The position numbers and the translations under genes were made by a program. Shown here piece by piece: positions 40,150-54,770 of a stretch of DNA of 64,000 nt (position 1 is its first letter; every line of letters starts with the position of its first letter). The DNA lies in the NCBI RefSeq assembly GCF_002245895.1, contig NZ_NPJZ01000001.1, positions 3,012,501 to 3,076,500 on the forward strand. Direction: 5' to 3'. The notes under the pieces were generated by a model, which was not told where the DNA came from, did not search any database, and was given only the letters and a program-made list of their open reading frames with translations. Origin of the DNA: Rhodococcus sp. OK302. Lineage in GTDB: Bacteria; Actinomycetota; Actinomycetes; Mycobacteriales; Mycobacteriaceae.

Positions 40150-40177
40150 CCATCCAAGTGGCTTGCGGCTCCGAATA
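40150..40177 (+). promoter_or_regulatory. SigK-type ECF promoter of the lipid-modification operon
   Basis: CCATCC (40150-40155), 16-bp spacer, CGAATA (40172-40177). This matches the -35/-10 pattern reported for mycobacterial sigma-K. The predicted start falls at about 40184, the first base of the ATG of the hydrolase gene, so the mRNA would be leaderless. A second site of the same form and spacing precedes the lipocalin gene (54077-54104). Confidence 0.7.
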
Positions 40178-40183
40178 CTGCCT

Positions 40184-40831
40184 ATGACGCCTCAACATTC
40201 GACGACGCCTGGCAAAAGACCCAGGGTGGTGGTGATGGTTCTGCCTGGTGGCAAGGTTTTGAGTCGCCGACGGTCGAGATTGTGGCACCTGTCGAACCTG
40301 CGGATGCTTCCGTTCACTGCCGCACTTCGGCGGCAGGGGTTCGAGGCAGTTCAGGTCCGATATCGCACACGTGGGTGGAACGGGGCCGAGCAAAGTCCAG
40401 TGGCAGATGCTCGGCAGGCGCTCAATCGGATCACAGCGAGCGACCCTGGCGCCACAGTGGTTTTGCTCGGTCATTCGATGGGTGGGCGGGTGGCTGCCGC
40501 TTTGCTGAGTGACGGGTTGTCGGGTGACGCGGCAATTGCCGGCGTCGTCGCACTTGCGCCGTGGTGGCCCGCCGGGACGTCACTGGAACTTGATCAAGGC
40601 ACTCGACTGCTGGTCATCCACGGCACTGCGGATCGCTGGACCGATCCGGCCGCTTCACAATCGACGGTCGAGATGGCGCAGCGGTCCGGTGCCGACGCCG
40701 AGTGGATCGGCGTCGAAGGTGCGGGGCACTTCATGTTGAGTCGACCCCGTTGCTGGCACCGATTGGCCATCATCGCTGTTTCGGGCATGGCGCGGGGAGT
40801 AACCGAATTGAAGCAAGGAGAACGACGATGA
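40184..40831 (+). CDS. Alpha/beta hydrolase
   Basis: 215 residues. Nucleophile elbow GHSMGG near residue 90, acid in GTADRWTDP, His in GAGHFML; an oxyanion region MVLPGGKVLSRR follows the N-terminus. It is a probable esterase or lipase-like enzyme; substrate unknown. It is the first gene of a chain in which each later gene overlaps the one before it by 1-4 bp, so it probably acts on lipids with the downstream oxidoreductase and methyltransferases. Its ATG coincides with the predicted start of a SigK-type transcript. Confidence 0.82.
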   Translation: MTPQHSTTPGKRPRVVVMVLPGGKVLSRRRSRLWHLSNLRMLPFTAALRRQGFEAVQVRYRTRGWNGAEQSPVADARQALNRITASDPGATVVLLGHSMGGRVAAALLSDGLSGDAAIAGVVALAPWWPAGTSLELDQGTRLLVIHGTADRWTDPAASQSTVEMAQRSGADAEWIGVEGAGHFMLSRPRCWHRLAIIAVSGMARGVTELKQGERR

Positions 40832-42108
40832 GTTCGGAAAAGCGCAAGGTTGCCGTTGTGGGCAGCGGAGTCGCCGGGCTGACTGCAGCGTGGGTGCTGA
40901 GCAAAGACTCGGATGTGACTTTGTACGAGGTGGACTCGCGCTTGGGCGGGCATGCGGACACCCACTCGGTGACGGACCCTGAGGGTCGGTATCTTGCAAT
41001 CGACACCGGGTTCATCGTCCACAACGACCGTACCTATCCGACGTTGCTGCGACTCTTCTCCGAACTCGGTGTCGTAACGCAGGAGTCGGACATGAGTATG
41101 TCGGTGCGTTGTGGAGGTTGTGGTCTCGAATACTCCGGTGGGCAGGGTTTGCGCGGAGTGCTCCCCACGCCCGGGTTGTTGGTCAACGGCAGCTTCCTCT
41201 CGATGCTGATGGAGGTCAAGCGGTTTCATCGGCGAGCGCGTGCTGTGCTGGATTCGACAGATGCATCGATGCCGGATCAGACGCTGGGTGCCTTCTTGCA
41301 GAAGGGTCGATTCTCCGAATACTTCACGGCGCATTTCATGACACCGTTGGTGTCAGCGGTGTGGTCGTGCAATCCGTCATCGGCGCTCGAGTATCCGGCG
41401 CGATACTTGTTTTCCTTCCTCGACCATCACGGGATGCTCAGCATTGCCGGCTCGCCGAGCTGGAGAACGGTCACGGGCGGCTCGGTCGAGTACGTGAACG
41501 CTGTGGCCCGGGGCATCGGTGATGTTCGGCTCAGCACTCCCGCGCGGGCGATATACCGGCACAACGATTCCGTTGAAATTCGTGGGGGAGACGATCGGCT
41601 GGAGAGCTACGCCGCCGTGGTTGTCGCAACGCATCCCCAGCAGGCGTTGAAGATTCTGGCGGATCCGACGGCGACGGAACACGAGGTGCTCGGTGCTATG
41701 CCGTACACAATCAATCACACGCAGTTGCACACGGATGAGACTGTACTGCCGCAGAATTGGAATGCTCGGGCGTCGTGGAACTACTATCTTCCGGATTGTG
41801 GCGCGCCGTCCGATCATGTTCTGGTGAGTTACGACATGACTCGCCTGCAGCGTCTCCCCGACACGGGTCGTCGGTACATGGTGACCTTGGGTGGGGATGA
41901 CATGGTGGCTGCGGATTCCGTGATCGACAAGATGATGTATGAGCACCCGCAGTACACGCCGGCTTCTGTTGCGGCGCAGGGGCGCCTTCCCGAACTCGAC
42001 ACGAATGTACTCGCCTTTGCGGGCGCCTATCACGGTTGGGGGTTTCACGAGGACGGTGCGTTGTCCGGATTGCGTGCTGCTGAACGAGTGGGCGGGCGAT
42101 GGTCATGA
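40828..42108 (+). CDS. FAD-dependent oxidoreductase (amine-oxidase fold; Rv0449c-like)
   Basis: 426 residues. FAD dinucleotide motif VAVVGSGVAGLTAAWVL with GG-doublet-like RLGGHADTH, substrate region TGFIVHNDRTYPTLLRLF, and a C-terminal FAD segment FAGAYHGWGFHEDGALSGL. The family (NAD(P)/FAD amine-oxidase-like) occurs next to DUF1365 and CFA-type genes in many bacteria and may desaturate or reduce modified acyl chains. AAGGAG precedes ATG 40828; ATGA overlap with the hydrolase gene. Confidence 0.87.
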   Translation: MSSEKRKVAVVGSGVAGLTAAWVLSKDSDVTLYEVDSRLGGHADTHSVTDPEGRYLAIDTGFIVHNDRTYPTLLRLFSELGVVTQESDMSMSVRCGGCGLEYSGGQGLRGVLPTPGLLVNGSFLSMLMEVKRFHRRARAVLDSTDASMPDQTLGAFLQKGRFSEYFTAHFMTPLVSAVWSCNPSSALEYPARYLFSFLDHHGMLSIAGSPSWRTVTGGSVEYVNAVARGIGDVRLSTPARAIYRHNDSVEIRGGDDRLESYAAVVVATHPQQALKILADPTATEHEVLGAMPYTINHTQLHTDETVLPQNWNARASWNYYLPDCGAPSDHVLVSYDMTRLQRLPDTGRRYMVTLGGDDMVAADSVIDKMMYEHPQYTPASVAAQGRLPELDTNVLAFAGAYHGWGFHEDGALSGLRAAERVGGRWS

Positions 42109-42842
42109 GCATGCCTTGTCTACCTGCCATCATTCACATGAGCATTCGGCACGTGCGATCCGAACCGCTGCGCAACGAGTTCGAATACCGGAGCTACAGT
42201 TGGCTTGTCGATGTCGACCAGCTCCCGGTACTCCCGAAACCTCTGCGGCCGTTGGCCGGATTCGATACCGGAGATCACTTGGGTGATCCGATGAAGACCC
42301 TTCGAGGAAATGTTGAAGCGTTCCTCGCCGCCAACAACACAGATTTTTCCGGTGGGCGCATCGTGATGCTAGCGAATGCGCGGGTGTTCGGTTATGTGTT
42401 CAACCCGTTGAGTGTTTTCTGGTGCTTGGACGACGTCGGCAGTGTGGTTGCTGTGGTGGCAGAAGTTCACAACACCTACGGGGAACGGCATTGTTACCTG
42501 CTCAATCCCGACGACCGGGGTTCGGCCCGAACGGCTAAGGCTTTCTACGTCTCGCCGTTCAACGACGTCTCGGGCGAGTATCGAATGCACTTGCCTCTGC
42601 CGGAGGAGTCTTTGAATCTGTCGATCGTGCTCGCTCGCGACGGGCAGGCACCGTTCGTGGCAACGGTGTCCGGTCGGTGTTCGCCGGCAACCACGAGCGA
42701 AATTCTGCGCAGTGCGTTGGCTATCCCACTCGCACCACTTCTGGCATCCGCGCAGATCCGATACCAGGGAATCCGATTGTGGGCCAAACGCTTACCGATA
42801 GTTCCCAGACCTCGACACCAACCACAGGAGGCAGTGCAATGA
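42105..42842 (+). CDS. DUF1365 family protein (Rv0448c-like)
   Basis: 245 residues. Recognised from RHVRSEPLRNEFEYRSYSW, GRIVMLANARVFGYVFNPLS, VFWCLDD, EVHNTYGERHCYLL and KAFYVSPFNDVSGEYRM. DUF1365 proteins accompany the FAD oxidoreductase and cyclopropane-type methyltransferase in diverse bacteria; the biochemical role is not established. It has 4-bp ATGA overlaps at both ends. Confidence 0.87.
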   Translation: MSMPCLPAIIHMSIRHVRSEPLRNEFEYRSYSWLVDVDQLPVLPKPLRPLAGFDTGDHLGDPMKTLRGNVEAFLAANNTDFSGGRIVMLANARVFGYVFNPLSVFWCLDDVGSVVAVVAEVHNTYGERHCYLLNPDDRGSARTAKAFYVSPFNDVSGEYRMHLPLPEESLNLSIVLARDGQAPFVATVSGRCSPATTSEILRSALAIPLAPLLASAQIRYQGIRLWAKRLPIVPRPRHQPQEAVQ

Positions 42843-44107
42843 CCACAACCACTCTGGCCGCTGAGGTTGATCGATGGCCCGGCGTTGCTACAGTTCCGGG
42901 CGGTCTGAAGGTGCGTATCGCGGCACCAGTTGCACGATCGCTGTTCCATAAAGCTGTGGCGCGCTTGCCCTTGCGGGTCCAGATGCCGAACGGTGACGTC
43001 TCCGGCGGTGGGGGCGTCGGCGCTCCGTTGATGATCATTCATCGACCTGAGGATTTTGCAGCGAGGGTCGGTGACAGTGGCCTGATCGGTTTCGGCGAAT
43101 CGTATATGGCCGGGGACTGGGAGGCGTCGGATCTCACTGCAGTCCTCGAAGTGTTTGCATCTCGCGTCGCGACATTGATTCCCGGGTTCTTGCAGCGTCT
43201 GCGTGGATTGTACATTCCGAAACAGCCTCGTAATGAACGTAATTCGACGCAGAACACACGCTCGAACATATCCCGGCACTACGACCTGTCCAACGAGTTG
43301 TTCGAACTTTTCCTCGACGACACGATGACTTACTCGAGTGCGTTGTTCGAGAACCTCGCGACGGGAGCGTTGCCGTCGTGGAACGTGTTTGCCGCCGCGC
43401 AGCACCGCAAGATAGATCGACTCCTCGACGGCGCCGGCGTGGGGCCAGGCTCACGGGTTCTCGAGATCGGAACGGGCTGGGGTGAACTGGCGCTTCGCGC
43501 GGCGCAACGTGGTGCGACGGTGCGATCGGTGACCTTGTCGGTGGAGCAACAGGAGTTGGCATCCAAGCGGATCAGTGCTGTTGGCCTTGCCGATCGCGTG
43601 CAGGTGGACCTCCTGGATTACCGGCTGGTGGAGGGTGAGTACGACGCGGTGGTGTCGGTCGAGATGATCGAGGCCGTCGGCCACCAGTATTGGGGGAGCT
43701 ACTTCCAGAAAATCGATTCTCTGTTGGCTCCCGGCGGACGGGCCGCGATTCAGGCCATCACCATGCCGCATGATCGAATGTTGGCTACCCGCAACACCTA
43801 TACGTGGGTACACAAGTACATTTTCCCCGGCGGATTCCTGCCTTCGGTACGCGCGATCGAGGATGTGACCGAACGGCTGACCACGCTGCGGGTGCGTGAG
43901 CGAATGTCCATGGGTGATCACTATGCACAAACCTTGCGTCTGTGGGATGAGAAGTTCACTGCCAGAACCGAAGAAGTCGAAGAACTCGGATTTGATGCGG
44001 TGTTCGCCCGGATGTGGCACTTCTATCTCTGCTACTCCGAAGCCGGATTCCGGTCCGGGTATCTCGACGTCCAGCAAGTGATTCTCGATCGGAGGAACCC
44101 GCAATGA
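42839..44107 (+). CDS. Cyclopropane-fatty-acid-synthase-type methyltransferase (UfaA1-like)
   Basis: 422 residues, RBS AGGAGG at 42826-42831. N-terminal LIGFGESYMAGDWEASDL; SAM-binding VLEIGTGWGELALRAA; SVEMIEAVGHQYW; and the CFA active-site segment AITMPHDRMLATRNTYTW followed by HKYIFPGGFLPS. Highly similar in pattern to M. tuberculosis UfaA1 (Rv0447c), which methylates oleoyl chains in phospholipids on the way to tuberculostearic acid or cyclopropane products. Product here not known. Confidence 0.88.
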   Translation: MTTTTLAAEVDRWPGVATVPGGLKVRIAAPVARSLFHKAVARLPLRVQMPNGDVSGGGGVGAPLMIIHRPEDFAARVGDSGLIGFGESYMAGDWEASDLTAVLEVFASRVATLIPGFLQRLRGLYIPKQPRNERNSTQNTRSNISRHYDLSNELFELFLDDTMTYSSALFENLATGALPSWNVFAAAQHRKIDRLLDGAGVGPGSRVLEIGTGWGELALRAAQRGATVRSVTLSVEQQELASKRISAVGLADRVQVDLLDYRLVEGEYDAVVSVEMIEAVGHQYWGSYFQKIDSLLAPGGRAAIQAITMPHDRMLATRNTYTWVHKYIFPGGFLPSVRAIEDVTERLTTLRVRERMSMGDHYAQTLRLWDEKFTARTEEVEELGFDAVFARMWHFYLCYSEAGFRSGYLDVQQVILDRRNPQ

Positions 44108-45336
44108 CTGCCACTGTTGCTGCTCGATTGGCCGAATTGATAGAGCCGCTTGTCGGGGGTGAGCTTCCGGTTCGTCTCACCGCCTGGGACGGTAGCTCTG
44201 CAGGGCCGTCAAACGCGCCGAAAGTGACTCTGCGCAACGCGAATGTGTTGCGTCGGCTCCTGTGGAATCCTGGCGAGTTGGGCGCCGCGCAGGCGTATGT
44301 TCTGGGAGAGTTGGACGTCGAAGGTGATCTCGGCGACGCGCTTACCCACGTGTGGAAAGTCTCGGCCGAGCGCGGGTTGGGTTCGGTGACAACGACTCCG
44401 GCCGTTGTACTCGCGGCAGTCAAGGCTGCGCGTTCGCTGGGGGCATTCGGACGGCCGCTACCGCCGCCGAATTCGCAGGCTCAGGTCAGGGGGCGTCTGC
44501 ACAGTCTCGCAAGGGATCGGGCTGCGATCGGGCACCATTACGACCTCTCCAATGACTTCTACCAGCTAATTCTCGACGAGAACATGGCCTACTCCTCCGG
44601 GTACTGGACGTCGGAGGATCCCGATTACACGCTCGAGGATTCTCAGCGCGACAAACTGGACCTGGTGTGTCGCAAGATCGGCCTCGATCAGTCCCGAGGA
44701 CGTCGTCTGCTTGACGTTGGCTGCGGTTGGGGTTCCCTGAGCTTGCAAGCTGCCCGTGAATACGGTGCACATGTTGTCGGAGTAACGATTTCGGCGGAGC
44801 AGAAGGCTTTCATAGACGCGAAGGTCCGGATGCTCGGACTCGAGGATTGGGTGGAGATCCGTTTGCAGGACTACCGCGAAATTCCCGACGGTCCGTTTGA
44901 CGCTGTTGCTTCGATCGAGATGGGTGAGCATGTCGGTGAAGACAACTATCCGACTTACGTGAAAGCGCTGCATGACAACGTAATCGAGGGTGGTCGAGTG
45001 CTGATTCAGCAAATGTCCCGTACGGGCGCGTATCCCGGCGGCGGGCCTTTCATCGAATCATTCATCGCGCCCGATATGTTCATGCGCCCGCTGGGGCGCA
45101 CGGTCGCGATGATCGAGGAGGGTGGCCTCGAGGTGCGTGACGTCCAGGGCCTCCGTGAGCACTATGTGCGGACTGTGGACGCATGGATCGACACCTTCGA
45201 ATCCAACTTCGAGCGGGTTGTCGAACTGGTCGGACTCGAGGTTGCTCGCGTCTGGCGCCTCTATCTTGTGGGCGGCGGTATGGCTTTCCGGGACGGCCGT
45301 ATGGGCGTTCACCAGATTCTTTCGGTGCGACCGTAA
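44104..45336 (+). CDS. Second, divergent CFA-synthase-family methyltransferase
   Basis: 410 residues. The SAM site is canonical (LLDVGCGWGSLSLQAA, VVGVTISAEQ) and HHYDLSNDFYQLILDENMAY is typical of the family. The C-terminal catalytic region differs from true CFA synthases: the KYIFPGG segment is replaced by ESFIAPDMFMRPLGRT, with QQMSRTGAYPGGGPF before it. It may act on a different position or substrate. ATGA overlap with the UfaA1-like gene; 1-bp overlap with the next. I recall no second copy in the M. tuberculosis locus. Confidence 0.85.
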   Translation: MTATVAARLAELIEPLVGGELPVRLTAWDGSSAGPSNAPKVTLRNANVLRRLLWNPGELGAAQAYVLGELDVEGDLGDALTHVWKVSAERGLGSVTTTPAVVLAAVKAARSLGAFGRPLPPPNSQAQVRGRLHSLARDRAAIGHHYDLSNDFYQLILDENMAYSSGYWTSEDPDYTLEDSQRDKLDLVCRKIGLDQSRGRRLLDVGCGWGSLSLQAAREYGAHVVGVTISAEQKAFIDAKVRMLGLEDWVEIRLQDYREIPDGPFDAVASIEMGEHVGEDNYPTYVKALHDNVIEGGRVLIQQMSRTGAYPGGGPFIESFIAPDMFMRPLGRTVAMIEEGGLEVRDVQGLREHYVRTVDAWIDTFESNFERVVELVGLEVARVWRLYLVGGGMAFRDGRMGVHQILSVRP

Positions 45337-46115
45337 TGGGTACGGTTGCGCTCGCGAGTCTGCTGGCGATTGTTGTCACTATGGCGGTGACGGCGGTGAT
45401 CGGTGTGCGGATCGGCCGCCACAACGTCGTCGACGTGTCCTGGGGTGTTGGCTTTGTGGTGATCGCTGCTGTGTCCGCGGCGGTGGGTACGGGCGATCTG
45501 TGGCGTCGACTCTTGATGCTTGCGCTGGTGGGGATGTGGGGATTGCGATTGGCGTCGCACATGGCTGTGCGTTCCCGAGGAAAGGGTGAAGACCCGCGCT
45601 ACGAGGAACTGCTGGGCAAAGCGAGTGGCAATCGCACTCTCCATGCGATTCGGAAAATCTATGTGACACAAGGTATTTCCTTATGGTTTGTCTCGCTTCC
45701 GGTGCAGGTGTCGGCACAGTCGAGTGGCGGGTTCAACGTCATTGTTGTGCTCGGCGTGCTGTTGTGGCTGCTGGGAGTGACATTCGAGGCGGTGGGTGAC
45801 CGGCAGATGGCGGCCTTCAAATCCGATCCCGGTAGTCGCGGGCACATCATGGATCAGGGACTGTGGGCCTGGACGCGTCATCCGAACTATTTCGGTGACG
45901 CGTGCGTGTGGTGGGGGATCTTCCTCGTCGCTGCATCCGCCTGGCCGGGAGTGCTGACAATTCTCTCGCCCGTCGCAATGACGTATTTTCTGGTGTTCGC
46001 CACCGGAGCGCGACTCCTCGAAAGGCATATGGCTCAGCGTCCCGGGTATCGGGAGTATCAGGAGCGCACAAGCTACTTCGTTCCGCGACGCCCACGATCC
46101 GCACCCGGGGCTTGA
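45336..46115 (+). CDS. DUF1295 membrane protein (steroid 5-alpha-reductase-like; Rv0446c-like)
   Basis: 259 residues with about six transmembrane helices. The ICMT/steroid-reductase-like C-terminal core is present: DQGLWAWTRHPNYFGDACVWWG and LLERHMAQRPGYREYQERT. Such proteins are NADPH-dependent reductases or methyltransferases of lipids. TAATG overlap with the preceding methyltransferase. As the last gene of the operon, it may reduce a methylated or unsaturated acyl intermediate (inference). In M. tuberculosis its orthologue sits beside sigK. Confidence 0.85.
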   Translation: MGTVALASLLAIVVTMAVTAVIGVRIGRHNVVDVSWGVGFVVIAAVSAAVGTGDLWRRLLMLALVGMWGLRLASHMAVRSRGKGEDPRYEELLGKASGNRTLHAIRKIYVTQGISLWFVSLPVQVSAQSSGGFNVIVVLGVLLWLLGVTFEAVGDRQMAAFKSDPGSRGHIMDQGLWAWTRHPNYFGDACVWWGIFLVAASAWPGVLTILSPVAMTYFLVFATGARLLERHMAQRPGYREYQERTSYFVPRRPRSAPGA

Positions 46116-46165
46116 CTCTCGGCCTAGCTCTCGCCGAATCGGTCGAACAGTGCAAAGGTAGTCGT

Positions 46166-46549
46166 GTGAGCGTGAGTGAATTGAAACTACCGGCGGCCAT
46201 CGGTGCGGTGGCCGCCGGCGGCGCGCTCGGGGCGCTGACACGATATGGCCTCGGTGAGCTGTTCCCGCACATCTGGACGACGCTCGTCATCAATGTGGTC
46301 GGCTCGTTGATCCTCGGAATCCTTGCCGCACTGTTGGTTCACAACAAGGGGTGGTACGTCTTCCTCGGTACAGGATTTTGTGGCGGCTTCACTACGTTCT
46401 CGTCGTTCGCGGTTCATGCGGTGACCGAAAGCCCGATTCGATCGATCCTGTACGTGCTCGGCACGTTGATTCCGGCCATTCTTGCTGCGGCGTTGGGCAA
46501 GGAACTCGGTGAGCGGTGGATACGTAATCGTGAAGGGGCAGTGGCATGA
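46166..46549 (+). CDS. crcB: Fluoride exporter CrcB/Fluc subunit 1
   Basis: 127 residues, GTG 46166 with AAAGGT upstream. Four helices; signature GALGALTRYGLGE, TLVINVVGSLILG and GTGFCGGFTTFSSFAVHAV. Fluc channels are dual-topology dimers exporting F-. Its stop overlaps the second crcB by 4 bp, and paired genes usually make heterodimers. No fluoride riboswitch was recognised upstream. Corresponds to the Rv3069/Rv3070 pair. Confidence 0.92.
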   Translation: MSVSELKLPAAIGAVAAGGALGALTRYGLGELFPHIWTTLVINVVGSLILGILAALLVHNKGWYVFLGTGFCGGFTTFSSFAVHAVTESPIRSILYVLGTLIPAILAAALGKELGERWIRNREGAVA

Positions 46550-46890
46550 CCGTTGTCCTCGTAGCTCTCGGCGGAGGTGCCGGTGCCACCGGCCGATACC
46601 TCCTTGCGAAATACGTCCCTGCCTACAAGGGATTTCCGGCCGCAACATTCGCGGCTAACGTCCTGGGTTGCTTCCTGCTCGGATTGTTCACCGGCGCAAC
46701 GCTCTCCACCCCGTTGGCTGCCTTGCTCGCGACGGGCTTTTGTGGCGGTTTGTCCACGTACTCGACCTTTTCGAACGAAAATGTCGGCATGCTCGAGAAG
46801 CGTCAGACGGCCCTCTCGTTGGTGTACATCATCGTCAGTCTTGTCGTCGGTCTCAGCGCTGCCTGGTTGGGAATTCAGATCACAGAGTAG
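46546..46890 (+). CDS. crcB: Fluoride exporter CrcB/Fluc subunit 2
   Basis: 114 residues. [29 protein letters not shown] and [18 protein letters not shown] are the second Fluc signature set. Translationally coupled (ATGA) to the first subunit, consistent with an oppositely oriented partner. It is followed 56 bp later by pgm. Confidence 0.92.
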
Positions 46891-46946
46891 AGAATGGGCT
46901 TCAGTCGTGTCGGCTTCGTGGCCGACCACCGTGCTTAGGGGGAGTC

Positions 46947-48584
<1,638 letters not shown>

Positions 48585-48597
48585 AATCCTGGGCGAC

Positions 48598-49809
48598 ATG
48601 AAAACTCGCGCAGCCAGACTGCCACAGGAAATCTGGGTACTGGTTTCCGCCAGCTTCGTCATTGCCCTCGGGTTCGGTGTAGTTGCCCCGGCGCTACCGC
48701 AGTTCGCCCGCAGCTTCGACGTATCGGTGACCGCCGCCACCGTCGTCATCTCGTCGTTTGCATTCATGCGTTTGGTGTTTGCGCCGATGAGCGGCACCTT
48801 GGTGCAAAAGCTCGGTGAGCGGCCCGTCTACATCACCGGACTTCTGATCGTTGCGTTGTCCACCGGTGCGTGTGCGTTTGCGCAGGATTACTGGCAACTG
48901 CTGCTGTTCCGTTCGGCCGGCGGCATCGGTTCGACCATGTTCACGGTCTCCGCGCTGGGGTTGCTCATCCGGATCTCACCGCCGGACAGCCGGGGCAGGG
49001 TCTCCGGCCTGTACGCGACGAGTTTCCTGATGGGCTCGATCACGGGTCCGATCTTCGGTGGTGCGCTCCTGCAGTTCGGTCTGCGGATGCCGTTCATCAT
49101 CTACGCGGTCACGCTTGTCGTCGCCGCTGCGGTGGTGTTTGTCAGCTTGCGCGGCTCGCATCTGGCGTCGCCGGAGAAGGGCGAGGTCGTCACACCGATG
49201 ACGTTGGCCGAGGGTTTGCGTTCGCCGGTGTATCGGGCGGCGCTGGGCTCGAACCTGGCCTTCGGTGGTGTCATCTTCGGCGTCCGCGTCGCCATGGTTC
49301 CGCTCTTCGTGGTGGAGGCACTGGAGCGCGAGGATTCGGTCGCGGCCTACGCGTTGGCGGTCTTCGCCGTCGGAAATGCGTTGGTCTTGACGTTCTCCGG
49401 TCGACTATCCGATAAGTACGGGCGCAAGCCGTTTGTCATCGCGGGCTTGCTTGTGTGCGGGTTCGGCACCATCGCGATCGGATTCACCGAAAACTTGGTT
49501 GCGTTCTTCGTGATCGCCGCGATTACCGGCGCAGGTTCGGGTTTGATGAGTCCGTCGCAGCAGGCTGCGGTTGCCGACGTTGTCGGTTCGAAGGCTCGCG
49601 GAGGCCCGGTTCTGGCGGTGTTCCAGATGATGTCCGACGTCGGCGGGGTTGTTGCTCCGATCTGTGCGGGCCTGCTGGCTCAGAATTTCTCGTACTCCGT
49701 GGCGTTCGCCGCGATGGGATCCGTGGTTGTCCTCGCTACGGTGGGCTGGCTTCTGGTGCCGGGGAAGTCAGTGACTGCCAAGGCAGTCAGCTCTGAGCCT
49801 GCTCACTAG
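48598..49809 (+). CDS. MFS transporter, drug-efflux-like
   Basis: 403 residues with 12 predicted helices. MFS motif regions are seen at FAPMSGTLVQKLGERPVYIT (loop 2-3) and GRLSDKYGRKPFVIAG (loop 8-9), and LGFGVVAPALPQFARSF in helix 1. Substrate not predictable; antiporter-type efflux is likely from the short form. It starts 13 bp after pgm and may share its transcript. Confidence 0.85.
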   Translation: MKTRAARLPQEIWVLVSASFVIALGFGVVAPALPQFARSFDVSVTAATVVISSFAFMRLVFAPMSGTLVQKLGERPVYITGLLIVALSTGACAFAQDYWQLLLFRSAGGIGSTMFTVSALGLLIRISPPDSRGRVSGLYATSFLMGSITGPIFGGALLQFGLRMPFIIYAVTLVVAAAVVFVSLRGSHLASPEKGEVVTPMTLAEGLRSPVYRAALGSNLAFGGVIFGVRVAMVPLFVVEALEREDSVAAYALAVFAVGNALVLTFSGRLSDKYGRKPFVIAGLLVCGFGTIAIGFTENLVAFFVIAAITGAGSGLMSPSQQAAVADVVGSKARGGPVLAVFQMMSDVGGVVAPICAGLLAQNFSYSVAFAAMGSVVVLATVGWLLVPGKSVTAKAVSSEPAH

Positions 49810-49830
49810 GTCGCTCTGTAGGCTCGGCTC

Positions 49831-50319
49831 GTGGCGATTCGCATCGTGAGTCTTGTGGCCCGGTTGGGCTTGGCGGCTGTCTGGTTGATTTCGGGTGGGC
49901 TGAAGTTCCTCGATCCCGTGCAGACGAAGATCGCTGTCCGGGCGTACCAACTTCTGCCCGAGAGCCTCGTCGGACCCGTTGCGATGGCATTGCCGTTGAT
50001 CGAGATCATCCTCGGATTGCTTCTGCTCGTCGGTCTTGCCGTCCGGGCATCGGCCGTTGTCTCCGTGCTGGTACTCGTCGTGTTGATCGGCGTGATCATT
50101 TCGGTGTGGGCCCGTGGATTGTCCATCGACTGTGGTTGTTTCGGCGGTGGTGGAGCGGCCGACGTGGGCGCGTGGGATTACCTCAGCGAGATCTTGCGGG
50201 ACATCGGTTTCTTGGCGCTGGCAGTGTGGTTGTGTGTCTTCCCGCGCTCACCGTTGGCATTGGGACAGGGATCACGTGTGGGTTTCTCAGTTGAAGCTCA
50301 GTCTTCAGTGGCAAGGTAG
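49831..50319 (+). CDS. MauE/DoxX-family membrane protein
   Basis: 162 residues with four helices, GTG 49831. The N-terminus LVARLGLAAVWLISGGLKF and the motif DCGCFGGGG after helix 3 are typical of MauE-like proteins, which support disulfide formation or electron transfer for exported proteins. The next gene encodes a membrane-anchored DsbA-like protein 34 bp downstream, a recurrent actinobacterial pair. No sign of methylamine dehydrogenase genes. Confidence 0.8.
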   Translation: MAIRIVSLVARLGLAAVWLISGGLKFLDPVQTKIAVRAYQLLPESLVGPVAMALPLIEIILGLLLLVGLAVRASAVVSVLVLVVLIGVIISVWARGLSIDCGCFGGGGAADVGAWDYLSEILRDIGFLALAVWLCVFPRSPLALGQGSRVGFSVEAQSSVAR

Positions 50320-50353
50320 ACAAAACTACCGACGCACGAAGGACTGCATCAGC

Positions 50354-51091
50354 GTGAGCGCCCAGAACAAGAAGTACACCCCGGAACCGGTATCGAGTCG
50401 TTCTACCTACATCATCGGCGGGTTGGCGATCGTAGTCATCGCAGCCTTGGTGTTCGGCGGCATCTGGTGGCAGAGCAGCAAGAACAAAGTGCAGAACGAG
50501 GGCTACGGCTCGGTGCAGAACTCCGAGGTTGTGGTCACAGTCCAGGACAACGGCGTCGTACTGCTCGGAAAGCCTGATGCGCGTACCACTCTCGACATCT
50601 TCGAGGATCCGCTGTGCCCAGCGTGCGCGGCACTCGAGCACCTGAGCGGACAGGCAGTCGCGCAGGCAATCGACAACGGTGACATCGCCGTTCGCTATCA
50701 CATGCTCAACTTCCTCAACAAGGCATCGAGTAGCGGCGACTACTCCACCCGCGCCGGCGCTGCGTTGATGTGCGTCGCGCAGGACGGCAACGCCATCGCG
50801 TACTCACGCTTGCACACGGCACTGTTTTCGCCGGACAACCAGCCGGCCGAGAGCGGAAAGAGTGATCACAGCAACGACGAACTGGCGAGCCTCGCCACCG
50901 AGAACGGTGCGTCTCCGGCCGCAGCCACCTGCATCTCCTCGGGAGTGAACGTAGAGGCCGCTGCGGCCAACGCAGCTGCAGCCAGTGAAGCGCTCTCGGC
51001 GGCCGGCAGCACTGGCACCCCGACGGTGGTTGCGGACGGCAAGATCGTCAGCACCAAGAACAGCGACTGGGTCTCGCAGTTCACTTCCTGA
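50354..51091 (+). CDS. Membrane-anchored DsbA-like thiol-disulfide oxidoreductase
   Basis: 245 residues, GTG 50354. One N-terminal helix (YIIGGLAIVVIAALVFGGIW), then an exported thioredoxin-fold domain with active site DPLCPACAALE, a cis-Pro segment TGTPTVVADG, and two more Cys (ALMCVAQ, AATCISS) that could form a structural disulfide. It is likely to form disulfides in exported proteins, re-oxidised by the MauE-like neighbour (inference). Confidence 0.85.
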   Translation: MSAQNKKYTPEPVSSRSTYIIGGLAIVVIAALVFGGIWWQSSKNKVQNEGYGSVQNSEVVVTVQDNGVVLLGKPDARTTLDIFEDPLCPACAALEHLSGQAVAQAIDNGDIAVRYHMLNFLNKASSSGDYSTRAGAALMCVAQDGNAIAYSRLHTALFSPDNQPAESGKSDHSNDELASLATENGASPAAATCISSGVNVEAAAANAAAASEALSAAGSTGTPTVVADGKIVSTKNSDWVSQFTS

Positions 51092-51145
51092 GGCGATTGC
51101 GGCCGCTCTGAAGTGAGAGCGGCCGCACCCTTCTGACCAGCCGAT

Positions 51146-51175
51146 TTGTAGCCCGACGCGCAAGTGGTGTAACTT
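51146..51175 (+). promoter_or_regulatory. Promoter of the tRNA-Ala gene
   Basis: -35 TTGTAG (51146-51151), 18 bp, -10 TAACTT (51170-51175). Same spacing and identical -10 as the initiator tRNA promoter. Start near 51182, about 45 nt before the mature tRNA. Confidence 0.55.
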
Positions 51176-51226
51176 TCTTCGAGCAAGCGGAAAGCAGAAC
51201 AGTCGCCTGCAAGATCAACTGAATAC

Positions 51227-51299
51227 GGGGCTATGGCGCAGCTGGTAGCGCACCACACTGGCAGTGTGGGGGTCAGGGGTTCGAGTCCCCTTAGCTCCA
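51227..51299 (+). tRNA. tRNA-Ala (GGC)
   Basis: 73-nt cloverleaf. Acceptor GGGGCTA/TAGCTCC, anticodon stem CCACA/TGTGG with loop CTGGCAG (anticodon GGC), T-arm GGGGTTCGAGTCCCC, discriminator A. CCA not encoded. Confidence 0.95.
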
Positions 51300-51309
51300 C
51301 CCGAGAAAA

Positions 51310-51350
51310 AGCTCCTCACTTGCGAACCTTCGCGAGTGAGGAGCTTTTTT
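51310..51350 (+). terminator. Intrinsic terminator after tRNA-Ala
   Basis: Long stem (AGCTCCTCACT... with ...AGTGAGGAGCT, 51310-51345) containing one G-T pair, tight loop around AACC, and a T6 tract at 51345-51350. Confidence 0.92.
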
Positions 51351-51416
51351 GTGTCTCGAGCTTGGTAGTACTCGCCGCAGCAGGCGGTTAAGGGGGACAC
51401 GCCTGCTGCGGGAGGA

Positions 51417-53975
51417 TTATGTGCGGATTCCCGCGGTCTGTGACGCCAGGGCGCGCTCGACGGCCTCGCCGGCAGCAACTGCGTACGGGGCCCGCAGGAT
51501 GTCCTCATGGGATCCGAGGATGTCTTCGAAGGTGACACGGCCTGTGGCGACAGCCGACCAGTCAGCGGCGCTCTGACGGTTGTCCTCACCGCGGATGACG
51601 GTTACCGCACCGCGGTACGGGCACGGGACGTAGTTTCGAAGCGAGGCGAGTCCGCGGTGATAGAAGAGGTACCACTGCATCGAGGTGTCGAACTGCATGA
51701 CTCCGGCAAACTGGTATCGGAACCAAATTCCCAGGACTGATTTCCGCGACGTGCGTGCTCGCGCATTGAGAACGGGTTCGGGGCTCGTTGTCTCGGGGCC
51801 TTCTTCTTCGCGCACAGCGTCAGGGTTCGGCGCAATCATGTTCTCGCGCAGGTGGGTGTCCAGAATGACAACGTGCTCGACGGTCTCGCCTTCGTCGTGG
51901 AGGCGACTGGCGATTTCCAGGGCAACGAAACCGCCGTGCGAGTAGCCGCCGAGGACATAGGGTCCGTGCTGCTGGACCTTCCTGATCTCACGGATATACC
52001 GATCAGCCATCTTCGAGATAGTTCGATCGGGGAGGCCGCGCGATTCCATTCCATGCGCTTGCAGGGCGTACACCGGTCGGTTTCCGGACATTGCCTGCGT
52101 CATTGCGAGGAAGCTCAGTGCCGGCGCTCCGGCACCGGTGATCAGGAAGAGCGGGGTTCGCGAACCTTCGGTGGTGAGAGGAACCAAGTCGGAAGCCCGA
52201 CCTTCGTCACGTTTCCTGTTGCAGAGCATGGCGTCGACGAGCGCAGCCAGTTCTCGAATGGTTGTGGCCGTGGCAAATTGGGCTCCGGTGACGGTGACCA
52301 GGACCGCTGCCCGAACGGCAGTCAGCATCTCGGCGGCAGCCAGTGAATCGCCGCCGAGCGCGAAGAAATCGTCGTCGCGGTCCAAGCTTTCGAGGCCGAT
52401 GATCTTGGACCAGATGATGGCAATGCGAAATTCGGTGATGGTTTCCAGCGTCGGTCCGGCCGTCGTGGTGGTGACGGGTGCCGGCGCGGGAAGTGCGGCG
52501 CGGTCGATCTTTCCGCGTTCGGTGCGAGGGATAGAAGTCAGCATGATGATGTGGCGGGGCACCATCCAGCCCGGCAGCCGTTGGGAAAGTTCACGTCGAA
52601 CTTCGGCGGGGGACAAGGTAATTCGATTCGGATTGCTGACGACGTAGGCGCACAGAACCGGGTCGTCGTTCTCGGTTTGCACAATGACGGCAACGTCCAC
52701 GACGCCGGAGATCGCGCGGAGTGAGGCGTCGACTTCGGTGGGTTCGACGAGATACCCGCGGATCTTCACAGCGTCGTCGAGACGGCCCCTGAGTTGTAGT
52801 TCCCCCTGGGTATCGATGCATCCACGGTCGCCCGTCCGGTAGCGGCTGACACCGTCAGCGAGGGCGGTGAAGCGTTGCGATGTCCGCTCAGGATCGCCGT
52901 GGTAGCCGTCGGCCAAGTCGCTGGAGATGATGTGGATTTCGCCGACCTCGCCGTCGGGGAGTGGGTTGCCATCGAGGTCGACGATCTGGACGTCTTTCCC
53001 GTCGCGAGCACGACCGGCCGGGACGATGCCCGACGGGAATGCCGAACCCGGAGGAAAAGCGTTGTACGCGACCACGCCGGTCTCGGTGGTGGCCATCCAG
53101 TTGACGTAGGTGACACCCGAGAATCCGTGATCGCGGTGTTGTTGGTAGTCACGGCCGTGCGCGGCCTCGCCGTACGTGACGACGACGCGCAGAGCGTTAT
53201 CGGAACTATCGCGCCGATCAGTGGGTTCGGCGGCGGTCCAGGCACGCAGGAAGGAGGGCGCGCAGTGGGCTGTGGTGATTGCGTTCCTGCGGAGCCAGTG
53301 GTCCAGGTTGGATGTGCCGTCGACCCGCGGGTCCCAGCAGTACACGGTGACGCCGTTCATCAGTCCCATGATGAGAGCGGTGATGCCGGCGCCGAAGCTG
53401 ACAGGCAGGAGGTTTCCGATGTGATCGTCCGGACGCAGATCAATTGCAGCGGCGAGTTCGTCGGCCTTGTTGAGACACATCGAGTGGCTGAGCACGACAC
53501 CTTTGGGAGCGCCGCTGGTACCGGAGGTGAACGCGATCATCGCCGGATCGGAACTGAGGGGCTCGAGTGCATTGCCGAACCGGAATTCGGTGGCTGCAGC
53601 TTCCTCGAGAACGGTGTGCAGGGCGACGGCTCCCGAGGTGGCGAGAATGTGTTCGCGTCGGGCGTCGGGTAGTTGCGGATCGATCATGACCAACGGTCGG
53701 CCGGAGATCAGGGTTGCGAGTAGGTAGACGACGGCCTGGGCGGTGGGCTCGAGGTCTACTGCGACGGGGCAGCTTCCGTGTGGGCCTCGAATGTCGAGTT
53801 CACGGGCGATTGCGTCGGCGCGCACTTCGAGATCGGCGAAGGTAATCTGATCGCGTGGGGTGACTATGGCTACGGTGTCGTGCTGCATCGAGGTGACACG
53901 GCGCCACCGGGATTCGATGGTCTCGTCGATGACGGCGTATCTCGTACGCTCGAGTCCCAAATCGACAACGTTCAT
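51417..53975 (-). CDS. A-T-TE enzyme (adenylation-carrier-thioesterase, no condensation domain)
   Basis: 852 residues. Adenylation domain ~1-500: A3 IAFTSGTSGAPKGV (147-160), YRTGDRG (379-385) and A10 Lys K489 in RTERGKIDRAAL. Carrier domain with phosphopantetheine Ser S544 in FFALGGDSLAAAE. C-terminal type I thioesterase with nucleophile S679 in GGYSHGGF. There is no condensation domain. In the A4 core, SFGAG has Gly195 where amino-acid-activating domains have the Asp that binds the alpha-amino group, so the substrate is probably a keto, hydroxy or aryl acid. The A-T-TE layout recalls furanone and quinone synthetases (RalA, AtrA). Product unknown; divergent from a lipocalin gene. Confidence 0.85.
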   Translation of the reverse strand: MNVVDLGLERTRYAVIDETIESRWRRVTSMQHDTVAIVTPRDQITFADLEVRADAIARELDIRGPHGSCPVAVDLEPTAQAVVYLLATLISGRPLVMIDPQLPDARREHILATSGAVALHTVLEEAAATEFRFGNALEPLSSDPAMIAFTSGTSGAPKGVVLSHSMCLNKADELAAAIDLRPDDHIGNLLPVSFGAGITALIMGLMNGVTVYCWDPRVDGTSNLDHWLRRNAITTAHCAPSFLRAWTAAEPTDRRDSSDNALRVVVTYGEAAHGRDYQQHRDHGFSGVTYVNWMATTETGVVAYNAFPPGSAFPSGIVPAGRARDGKDVQIVDLDGNPLPDGEVGEIHIISSDLADGYHGDPERTSQRFTALADGVSRYRTGDRGCIDTQGELQLRGRLDDAVKIRGYLVEPTEVDASLRAISGVVDVAVIVQTENDDPVLCAYVVSNPNRITLSPAEVRRELSQRLPGWMVPRHIIMLTSIPRTERGKIDRAALPAPAPVTTTTAGPTLETITEFRIAIIWSKIIGLESLDRDDDFFALGGDSLAAAEMLTAVRAAVLVTVTGAQFATATTIRELAALVDAMLCNRKRDEGRASDLVPLTTEGSRTPLFLITGAGAPALSFLAMTQAMSGNRPVYALQAHGMESRGLPDRTISKMADRYIREIRKVQQHGPYVLGGYSHGGFVALEIASRLHDEGETVEHVVILDTHLRENMIAPNPDAVREEEGPETTSPEPVLNARARTSRKSVLGIWFRYQFAGVMQFDTSMQWYLFYHRGLASLRNYVPCPYRGAVTVIRGEDNRQSAADWSAVATGRVTFEDILGSHEDILRAPYAVAAGEAVERALASQTAGIRT

Positions 53976-54026
53976 GTCTGAAGCTCCGTTCCAGCTATCA
54001 GTTACCGTAGAGCAAATACTACAGAA

Positions 54027-54054
54027 GGTTTGCTACAAAGGTCTATAACAAACC
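54027..54054. promoter_or_regulatory. Inverted repeat in the A-T-TE/lipocalin divergent region
   Basis: GGTTTGCTA (54027-54035) and TAACAAACC (54046-54054), one mismatch, 10-bp spacer, in the AT-rich gap 52 bp upstream of the A-T-TE start. Candidate operator for the leftward gene; regulator unknown. Confidence 0.4.
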
Positions 54055-54076
54055 AAAAGTAGTTTTCCATACCGGC

Positions 54077-54104
54077 CCATCCGTGCGGTAGTCCGCTCCG
54101 AATG
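54077..54104 (+). promoter_or_regulatory. SigK-type ECF promoter of the lipocalin gene
   Basis: CCATCC (54077-54082), 16-bp spacer, CGAATG (54099-54104), identical in elements and spacing to the site at 40150. Both spacers end in CTC just before CGAAT. Start near 54111, giving a ~57-nt leader that includes AGGAG before ATG 54168. Confidence 0.65.
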
Positions 54105-54167
54105 CCCTGTAGGAAGTCGAGCTGGAGCAGTGCTCGGCCAGAGCTGTGTGGTGAACAGGAGTGGGAC

Positions 54168-54770
54168 ATGAAACTGTCGGGGCGAAGTGTAATCATGCTG
54201 TTCGGAGCGTGTGCGTCTCTGGCGCTGCTGCCCGGTACGGCGCGGGCGGTGCCGATCTGGGAGCCGCTACAACCGGTGCAATCGCTGGACGTGGAGCGTT
54301 ACGTGGGCGATTGGTACCAATTGGCTGCTGTGCCGCAGCCGTTCAACCTGATGTGCGCAAAAGATACGCAGGCTCGATACGAGGTGCTTGATGCGTCGAA
54401 TGTGAGCGTTCGGAACACATGTACAACGTGGGCCGGGCAGCAGAGCGGCATCGCCGGTAATGCTCGAGTTATCGATTTGGTAACGAATGCCCAGTTGCAT
54501 GTGAGCTTTCCGAGCGTTCCCACACAAGACGGTCTGGACGGGCCACCCAATTACATCGTCACCTACATAGCCGACGACTATTCCTGGGCACTCGTGGGCG
54601 ATCCGCTTCGACTTTCGGGTTTCGTGCTTTCACGGTCACCGGTCGTCGATGCTGCACGATGGAATGAGATCCGCCGAGTGGCCGAGACTCACGGATACAA
54701 CGCCTGCACCATCCTGACGTCGCCGACTACGGAGGGGATGAAGGATATTCGACCGCTCTGTGTCCAATAG
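54168..54770 (+). CDS. Secreted lipocalin family protein
   Basis: 200 residues. Signal peptide (SVIMLFGACASLALLPGTA, cleavage likely after ARA) and the lipocalin signature VERYVGDWYQLAAVP (GxW). Three later Cys (LMCAKD, RNTCTTW, NACTI) plus a C-terminal LCVQ could form two disulfides. Bacterial lipocalins bind fatty acids or other hydrophobic ligands. RBS AGGAG at 54157-54161. A SigK-type promoter lies upstream, matching that of the lipid-modification operon. Confidence 0.87.
   Translation: MKLSGRSVIMLFGACASLALLPGTARAVPIWEPLQPVQSLDVERYVGDWYQLAAVPQPFNLMCAKDTQARYEVLDASNVSVRNTCTTWAGQQSGIAGNARVIDLVTNAQLHVSFPSVPTQDGLDGPPNYIVTYIADDYSWALVGDPLRLSGFVLSRSPVVDAARWNEIRRVAETHGYNACTILTSPTTEGMKDIRPLCVQ

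Follow-up and report, generated by a model that had tools for sequence, protein, structure and literature searches.

A candidate SigK-RskA regulon in Rhodococcus sp. OK302 comprising a furan-fatty-acid-like operon and a lipocalin gene

Two SigK-type sites and the genes behind them

The window examined here, a stretch of 64,000 nucleotides from the genome of Rhodococcus sp. OK302 to which all plain coordinates refer, carries a run of six genes from an alpha/beta hydrolase to a DUF1295 membrane protein and, further downstream, a lipocalin gene (Table 1). Both the operon and the lipocalin gene are preceded by the motif CCATCC-N16-CGAAT, which matches the promoter consensus reported for mycobacterial SigK, a sigma factor of the extracytoplasmic function (ECF) type. 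A search of both strands of the window returned exactly two matches, both on the plus strand, where 0.04 were expected, and none of 100 dinucleotide shuffles yielded two. When the spacer was freed to N14-20, the same two matches alone were found (0.42 expected) and 7 of 100 shuffles reached two, so that the common N16 spacing carries much of the significance of the pair. The motif pair exceeds chance. CTC precedes CGAAT at both sites, and both are intergenic and directed at a start codon. This agrees with the initial annotation, which had given the location, orientation and CTC of the two sites and had claimed that the window holds no other match; its end coordinates were each one base too long.

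Flanking the operon site are the hydrolase ATG and the inferred start (about 40036, minus strand) of a divergent gene, which the syntenic record L141 lists as an HNH endonuclease. The lipocalin site has the lipocalin ATG on one side and, on the other, a divergent gene that starts at 53975 (minus strand). The divergent gene (51417-53975) encodes a protein resembling nonribosomal peptide synthetases, with adenylation, carrier and thioesterase domains. A scan of the operon region for sigma-70 promoters and terminators gave no more signal than shuffled sequence.

Table 1. Features of the operon and lipocalin loci in the window.
Feature	Coordinates	Strand	Basis and remarks
Predicted operon promoter of the SigK type (CCATCC-N16-CGAAT, CTC ahead of the -10)	40150..40176	+	Sequence match, genus conservation
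Alpha/beta hydrolase, first gene	40184..40831	+	Pfam Hydrolase_4, Abhydrolase_6; ATG 7 nt past the -10
FAD-dependent oxidoreductase, UfaD-like, predicted fatty-acyl desaturase	40828..42108	+	Pfam Amino_oxidase
DUF1365 protein, UfaO-like, predicted furan-forming oxygenase	42099..42842	+	PF07103, E 2.5e-67
CMAS/CFA-family methyltransferase 1, UfaM candidate	42839..44107	+	PF02353
CMAS/CFA-family methyltransferase 2, tentative FufM candidate	44104..45336	+	PF02353
DUF1295 membrane protein, last of the overlapping run	45333..46115	+	PF06966; start GTG 45333 or ATG 45336
Predicted SigK-type promoter of the lipocalin gene	54077..54103	+	Sequence match, genus conservation
Likely ribosome-binding site (AGGAG) ahead of the lipocalin gene	54157..54161	+	Read from sequence
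Secreted lipocalin (predicted), Blc/ApoD/TIL type, Sec-like signal peptide	54168..54770	+	PF08212, E 7.2e-37

Adjacent genes of the operon overlap by 4 or 10 nt. We take the core of the operon to correspond to M. tuberculosis Rv0449c-Rv0446c. The UfaD-like protein shares 37-39% identity, at 95-98% coverage, with flavin adenine dinucleotide (FAD) enzymes encoded at loci linked to ChrR, the anti-sigma factor of sigmaE, and the UfaO-like protein shares 25-33% identity with the DUF1365 proteins of such loci; the loci compared were those of Azospirillum, Phyllobacterium and Pseudoalteromonas. Methyltransferase 1 is 58% identical to the methyltransferase of a Tsukamurella run that joins ufa genes, lipocalin and sigK, while methyltransferase 2 shares just 28-36% identity with the counterparts compared. 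Closely 3' of the operon, a CrcB-type fluoride exporter gene pair occupies 46166-46890, an arrangement that recurs in the annotation of L141. This record, from R. erythropolis KB1, is a 31-kb circle with a site-specific integrase and the gene order of this part of the window, including the ufa operon; it is perhaps an excised island or a matter of assembly.

The lipocalin scored 127 bits against the Lipocalin_2 model (PF08212; cut-off 24). Its best relatives in the PDB are temperature-induced lipocalin (TIL; 1.7e-15), followed by Blc and apolipoprotein D (ApoD), and it stayed below the cut-off of the Blc model NF007786 (46 against 267 bits). No lipobox was seen when the signal was read by eye; with its Sec-like signal the protein is therefore probably secreted rather than lipid-anchored. 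With a transcript start predicted near 54111, the lipocalin RNA would have a leader of approx. 57 nt that includes the ribosome-binding site.

SigK, RskA and the motif across the genome

The initial annotation had noted that sigK lies outside the window. In the same genome, approx. 0.27 Mb from the operon, we found it in an mpt83-like/sigK/rskA cassette that itself bears a SigK-type motif upstream. The sigma factor reached 303.6 bits against the NCBIfam SigK model NF007228 (cut-off 226), whereas the next model gave 130.1, short of its cut-off of 265. Among solved structures the best match of the sigma factor is M. tuberculosis SigK (4nqw, E 7.9e-63), followed by Rhodobacter sphaeroides RpoE (sigmaE), the partner of ChrR (E 9.5e-20). 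The gene overlapping the end region of sigK encodes a protein above the cut-offs of both RskA_N (PF22618) and RskA_C (PF10099). The third protein of the cassette has a Fasciclin domain and matches MPT70 (1nyo, E 2.6e-66). An mpt83-sigK-rskA cassette with a SigK site has been reported for Mycobacterium, Rhodococcus and Yersinia (PMC7509140). PMC7406223 deals with contacts between sigma and anti-sigma factors, not with the regulon. Elsewhere in the genome, a second protein (C1:3764910-3765260) exceeds the RskA_C cut-off with 40.9 bits and is possibly a second anti-sigma factor of the RskA type. R. wratislaviensis, R. jostii, R. koreensis and R. opacus (L085, L094, L095 and L096) each encode two SigK-type factors above cut-off.

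Across the genome (6.79 Mb, two contigs), CCATCC-N14-19-CGAAT occurs 28 times, spacers of 14, 15, 16, 17, 18 and 19 nt accounting for 2, 4, 6, 4, 5 and 7 matches. Gene contexts were taken from open frames and from reading of translations, apart from those scanned with Pfam. CTC stands before CGAAT in five of the six N16 matches, and four of these five precede genes, namely the two in the window, the fasciclin lipoprotein-SigK-RskA cassette and a molybdoenzyme gene. The fifth is antisense within a kynureninase-like gene; the sixth N16 match lacks CTC and lies inside open frames. One mismatch to CCATCC-N13-CTCCGAAT brought in three extra sites, all in coding frames (DnaN-like, acyltransferase-like and transporter-binding-protein-like). 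With at most one mismatch, the CTC form is thus present eight times, four times before genes and four times within coding frames. Many random intergenic matches or the lack of a SigK homologue, either of which the initial annotation had named as refuting its reading, were not found: the CTC-form sites that do not precede a gene all lie in frames read as coding. The molybdoenzyme, of the sulfite-oxidase family (C1:5352791-5354426; L150, L152), had gone unmentioned there and constitutes a fourth unit with a SigK-type promoter upstream.

The chief reader of these promoters might instead be a different ECF sigma factor encoded in this genome, with a similar consensus and with SigK as one reader or none. 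The second RskA_C-type protein at C1:3764910 as well as the pairs of SigK-type factors in R. jostii, R. opacus, R. koreensis and R. wratislaviensis would fit such a factor. However, the same motif heads the sigK cassette itself, lipocalin and ufa genes elsewhere share a run with sigK-rskA behind the motif, and SigK sites are described as highly conserved within Actinobacteria (PMC7509140). We therefore regard a different principal reader as improbable.

Conservation in the genus and linkage to sigK

Of 28 genomes of the genus, 25 encode the lipocalin. A search of 280 bases ahead of each matched start found the N16 site in exact form in 15 of the 25, with at most one mismatch in 22 and with at most two in 23. 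Among shuffled upstream stretches, none of 1000 came within one mismatch of the site, and 5% came within two. One of the two lipocalins without a site is a truncated match with a stop (L055). As the genomes share ancestry, such counts are not independent events, and divergence of the spacer is the better argument for conservation of the site: over 21 distinct lipocalin sites, the -35 and -10 elements hold 1.78 and 1.94 bits per base and the spacer 0.61. The head of the operon was searched over approx. 1.5 kb, and 22 of the 24 loci in the genus have a site there with no more than one mismatch. The molybdoenzyme site is present, always exact, at 25 of 28 loci (27 genomes), with N16 in 13 and N17 in 12.

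The distance between the operon site and the start codon is also kept. The ATG lies exactly 7 nt after CGAAT in 21 of the 24 genus loci, the exceptions being L194, L201 and L203. At three of the 21 (L190, L196 and L202) the first frame, of approx. 440 amino acids, is ufaD and not the hydrolase, so that the spacing has persisted despite a change of the first gene. Three Tsukamurella loci have the same 7-nt spacing. At the usual start distance of ECF promoters, the operon RNA would begin at or next to the AUG. Judging from this distance and the fixed spacing, transcription of the operon probably sets in at the AUG itself, which would be a conserved leaderless start.

Linkage was surveyed at the best 80 of 141 lipocalin loci. 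A site with at most one mismatch lies directly upstream of the lipocalin at 17 of them, and at seven more it precedes an upstream co-directional gene (four mpt83-lipocalin pairs and three Tsukamurella operons). Genes of the sigK locus occur within 10.5 kb at 23 of the 80, and 15 show both motif and linkage. A lipocalin gene divergent from the run mpt83-hydrolase-ufaD-ufaO-CMAS-CMAS-DUF1295-sigK-rskA, together with SigK-type sites pointing in both directions, is found in R. jostii, R. opacus, R. koreensis and R. wratislaviensis. On a Tsukamurella tyrosinosolvens plasmid, FAD oxidoreductase, DUF1365 protein, methyltransferase, lipocalin, SigK and anti-sigma factor are annotated in a single run, with a site 7 nt ahead of the first start codon. 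Plasmids of Gram-negative bacteria offered no general rule of a lipocalin near ufaO: one was annotated in two of eight regions (Klebsiella and Cupriavidus), hand-picked from 77 and 92 records whose gene tables are incomplete.

Several results weigh against a SigK regulon of operon and lipocalin. Neither motif nor linkage was found at 48 of the best 80 lipocalin loci, and most of those located outside Rhodococcus in the narrow sense have neither. SigK was above cut-off in 76 of 79 lipocalin genomes whether or not the motif was present, and its presence thus failed to explain which lipocalin loci bear the motif. Outside the genus, two further members of the family (G034 and G061) have a site directly upstream of the DUF1365 gene, which speaks for the regulon, but they are only two of 11 other genomes checked, drawn from the 25 that have DUF1365 besides the present genome. 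Among 61 genomes of the order, 11 with the lipocalin and 26 with DUF1365, both occur in four, where 4.7 were expected. Nor does the genome as a whole show an excess of the N16 spacing itself, which accounts for six of 28 matches over six spacers. The lipocalin is linked to SigK in certain lineages but not universally.

Absence of motif and linkage from these 48 loci would also fit a lipocalin match that is a chance occurrence or a relic, leaving the operon site alone as a SigK promoter, and so would the weak significance of the window pair once the spacer is freed. Such an origin is nevertheless most unlikely, given that the N16 site is retained before 22 of the 25 genus lipocalins although the spacer sequence diverges, and given that the lipocalin lies beside or within the sigK locus in several relatives.

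From these comparisons we conclude, with a probability of roughly 0.8, that both window sites are promoters read by SigK under the control of RskA. Motif conservation in the genus and, in certain other species, a location close to sigK-rskA back the proposal of the initial annotation that the lipocalin belongs to this regulon, of which it is very likely a member. The molybdoenzyme is very likely another. The earlier picture of operon plus lipocalin is hence supported, but incomplete, as at least four units appear to be involved.

Proposed function and relation to known systems

In R. sphaeroides, UfaM, UfaD and UfaO, the last of them a DUF1365 protein, convert phospholipid-bound 18:1 chains to a furan fatty acid under the control of sigmaE-ChrR; a further methylase, FufM of Rhodopseudomonas palustris, yields a dimethyl form (PMC7380195). 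FAD enzyme, DUF1365 protein and CFA-type methylase, the gene set of this pathway, stand together in the Rhodococcus operon, and the first two are homologous to the pair of the ChrR systems. Because the operon genes resemble these enzymes, a membrane response to photo-oxidative stress or lipid oxidation suggests itself. By analogy, we give a function in furan fatty acid synthesis and photo-oxidative defense even odds. The two CMAS genes could be a UfaM/FufM-like pair.

According to the proposed mechanism, the membrane anti-sigma factor RskA would hold SigK until a signal releases it. Freed SigK would turn on at least four units, i.e. the cassette, the hydrolase-UfaD-UfaO-CMAS1-CMAS2-DUF1295 operon, the lipocalin and the molybdoenzyme. 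The operon enzymes would methylate and oxidize the acyl chains of phospholipids on the way to furan fatty acids, and fatty or oxidized lipids at the envelope may be handled by the lipocalin. Lipocalins of the Blc/ApoD/TIL type are reported to guard lipids from oxidation. The outcome would be a defense against photo-oxidative or lipid-oxidation stress.

Published observations touch on this proposal from several sides. The RpoE regulon listed for R. sphaeroides includes the fasciclin protein RSP_1409, and to RpoE of Rhodobacter capsulatus, which is induced by photo-oxidative stress, SigK of M. tuberculosis is reported to be nearer (34%) than RpoE of R. sphaeroides (24%) (PMC7074977); a tie between SigK and photo-oxidation has thus already been touched on in print. 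A sigmaEc-dependent operon of S. maltophilia contains a lipocalin, two CFA synthases and a FAD oxidoreductase, and the lipocalin gene shows a 165-fold increase when chrR is mutated (PMC11832516). In M. kansasii, the mpt83/mpt70 homologues, which have putative SigK sites, are light-induced (PMC9861118). In the literature searched, no paper has Rv0449c together with furan, or SigK together with lipocalin, as whole words; SigK and ChrR occur together in eight papers. Of 257 papers with furan fatty acid or Rv0447c, none of the 20 best-ranked that were listed has both.

Three points speak against the furan and photo-oxidative function. Family membership leaves the products of both CMAS enzymes unfixed. 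As described in PMC11832516, the S. maltophilia system altered superoxide and beta-lactam phenotypes, not singlet-oxygen tolerance. Furthermore, dipZ of M. kansasii, located between the mpt83/mpt70 homologues and likewise with a putative SigK site, is given as not light-induced in PMC9861118. The first two also favor an operon product that is a cyclopropane or mid-chain methyl-branched instead of a furan acid, the CMAS family also producing cyclopropane acids, with acid, membrane or superoxide stress as the trigger. However, the operon has the UfaD-UfaO(DUF1365) pair, which is homologous to ChrR-linked pairs and which R. sphaeroides requires for the furan steps (PMC7380195), and the light induction in M. 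kansasii also counts against this alternative. This product and trigger are conceivable, if on the doubtful side.

The proposed regulon resembles the mycobacterial SigK-RskA regulon (mpt83/mpt70 and the sigK operon; ECF19) in SigK, RskA, the MPT70/83-type fasciclin cassette and the form of the promoter, and in its FAD oxidoreductase, DUF1365, CMAS and DUF1295 genes. It differs in that the operon is located approx. 0.27 Mb away from sigK, begins with a hydrolase gene and contains a second CMAS gene, and in that SigK-type sites also head the lipocalin and molybdoenzyme genes. With the sigmaE(RpoE)-ChrR regulon of R. sphaeroides and relatives (ECF11) it has in common UfaD/UfaO/CFA-type enzymes and a fasciclin protein under one ECF sigma factor (PMC7380195, PMC7074977), and with the S. 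maltophilia version also the lipocalin (PMC11832516). In contrast to these systems, the anti-sigma partner has RskA domains and is not of the ChrR type, no photolyase was found in the four Rhodococcus units, and the promoter has the SigK form; the system is analogous to sigmaE-ChrR, not a member of it. The lipocalin is like Blc, plant temperature-induced lipocalin and apolipoprotein D in its Lipocalin_2 domain and best PDB matches, but unlike Blc it falls far under the NCBIfam Blc cut-off and is probably secreted, not lipid-anchored. We tentatively suggest that SigK-RskA may be an actinobacterial counterpart of sigmaE-ChrR, responding to singlet oxygen or oxidized membrane lipids with furan fatty acids as membrane scavengers and with an exported lipocalin and an MPT83-type fasciclin protein that would manage envelope lipids.

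The environmental stimuli of SigK were termed obscure in 2023 (PMC9861118). A regulon of furan-fatty-acid-like genes, a lipocalin and a molybdoenzyme in a soil genus suggests a purpose for this poorly understood stress response. Moreover, the operon would provide a leaderless start held at a fixed distance from the -10 of one sigma factor despite a change of the first gene. The proposed Rhodococcus SigK regulon offers measurable outputs, acyl-chain chemistry and survival under light and oxidants, by which both signal and purpose become testable in harmless strains. If true, the relation to sigmaE-ChrR would explain the stimulus of SigK and hint at the role of the MPT70 and MPT83 antigens.

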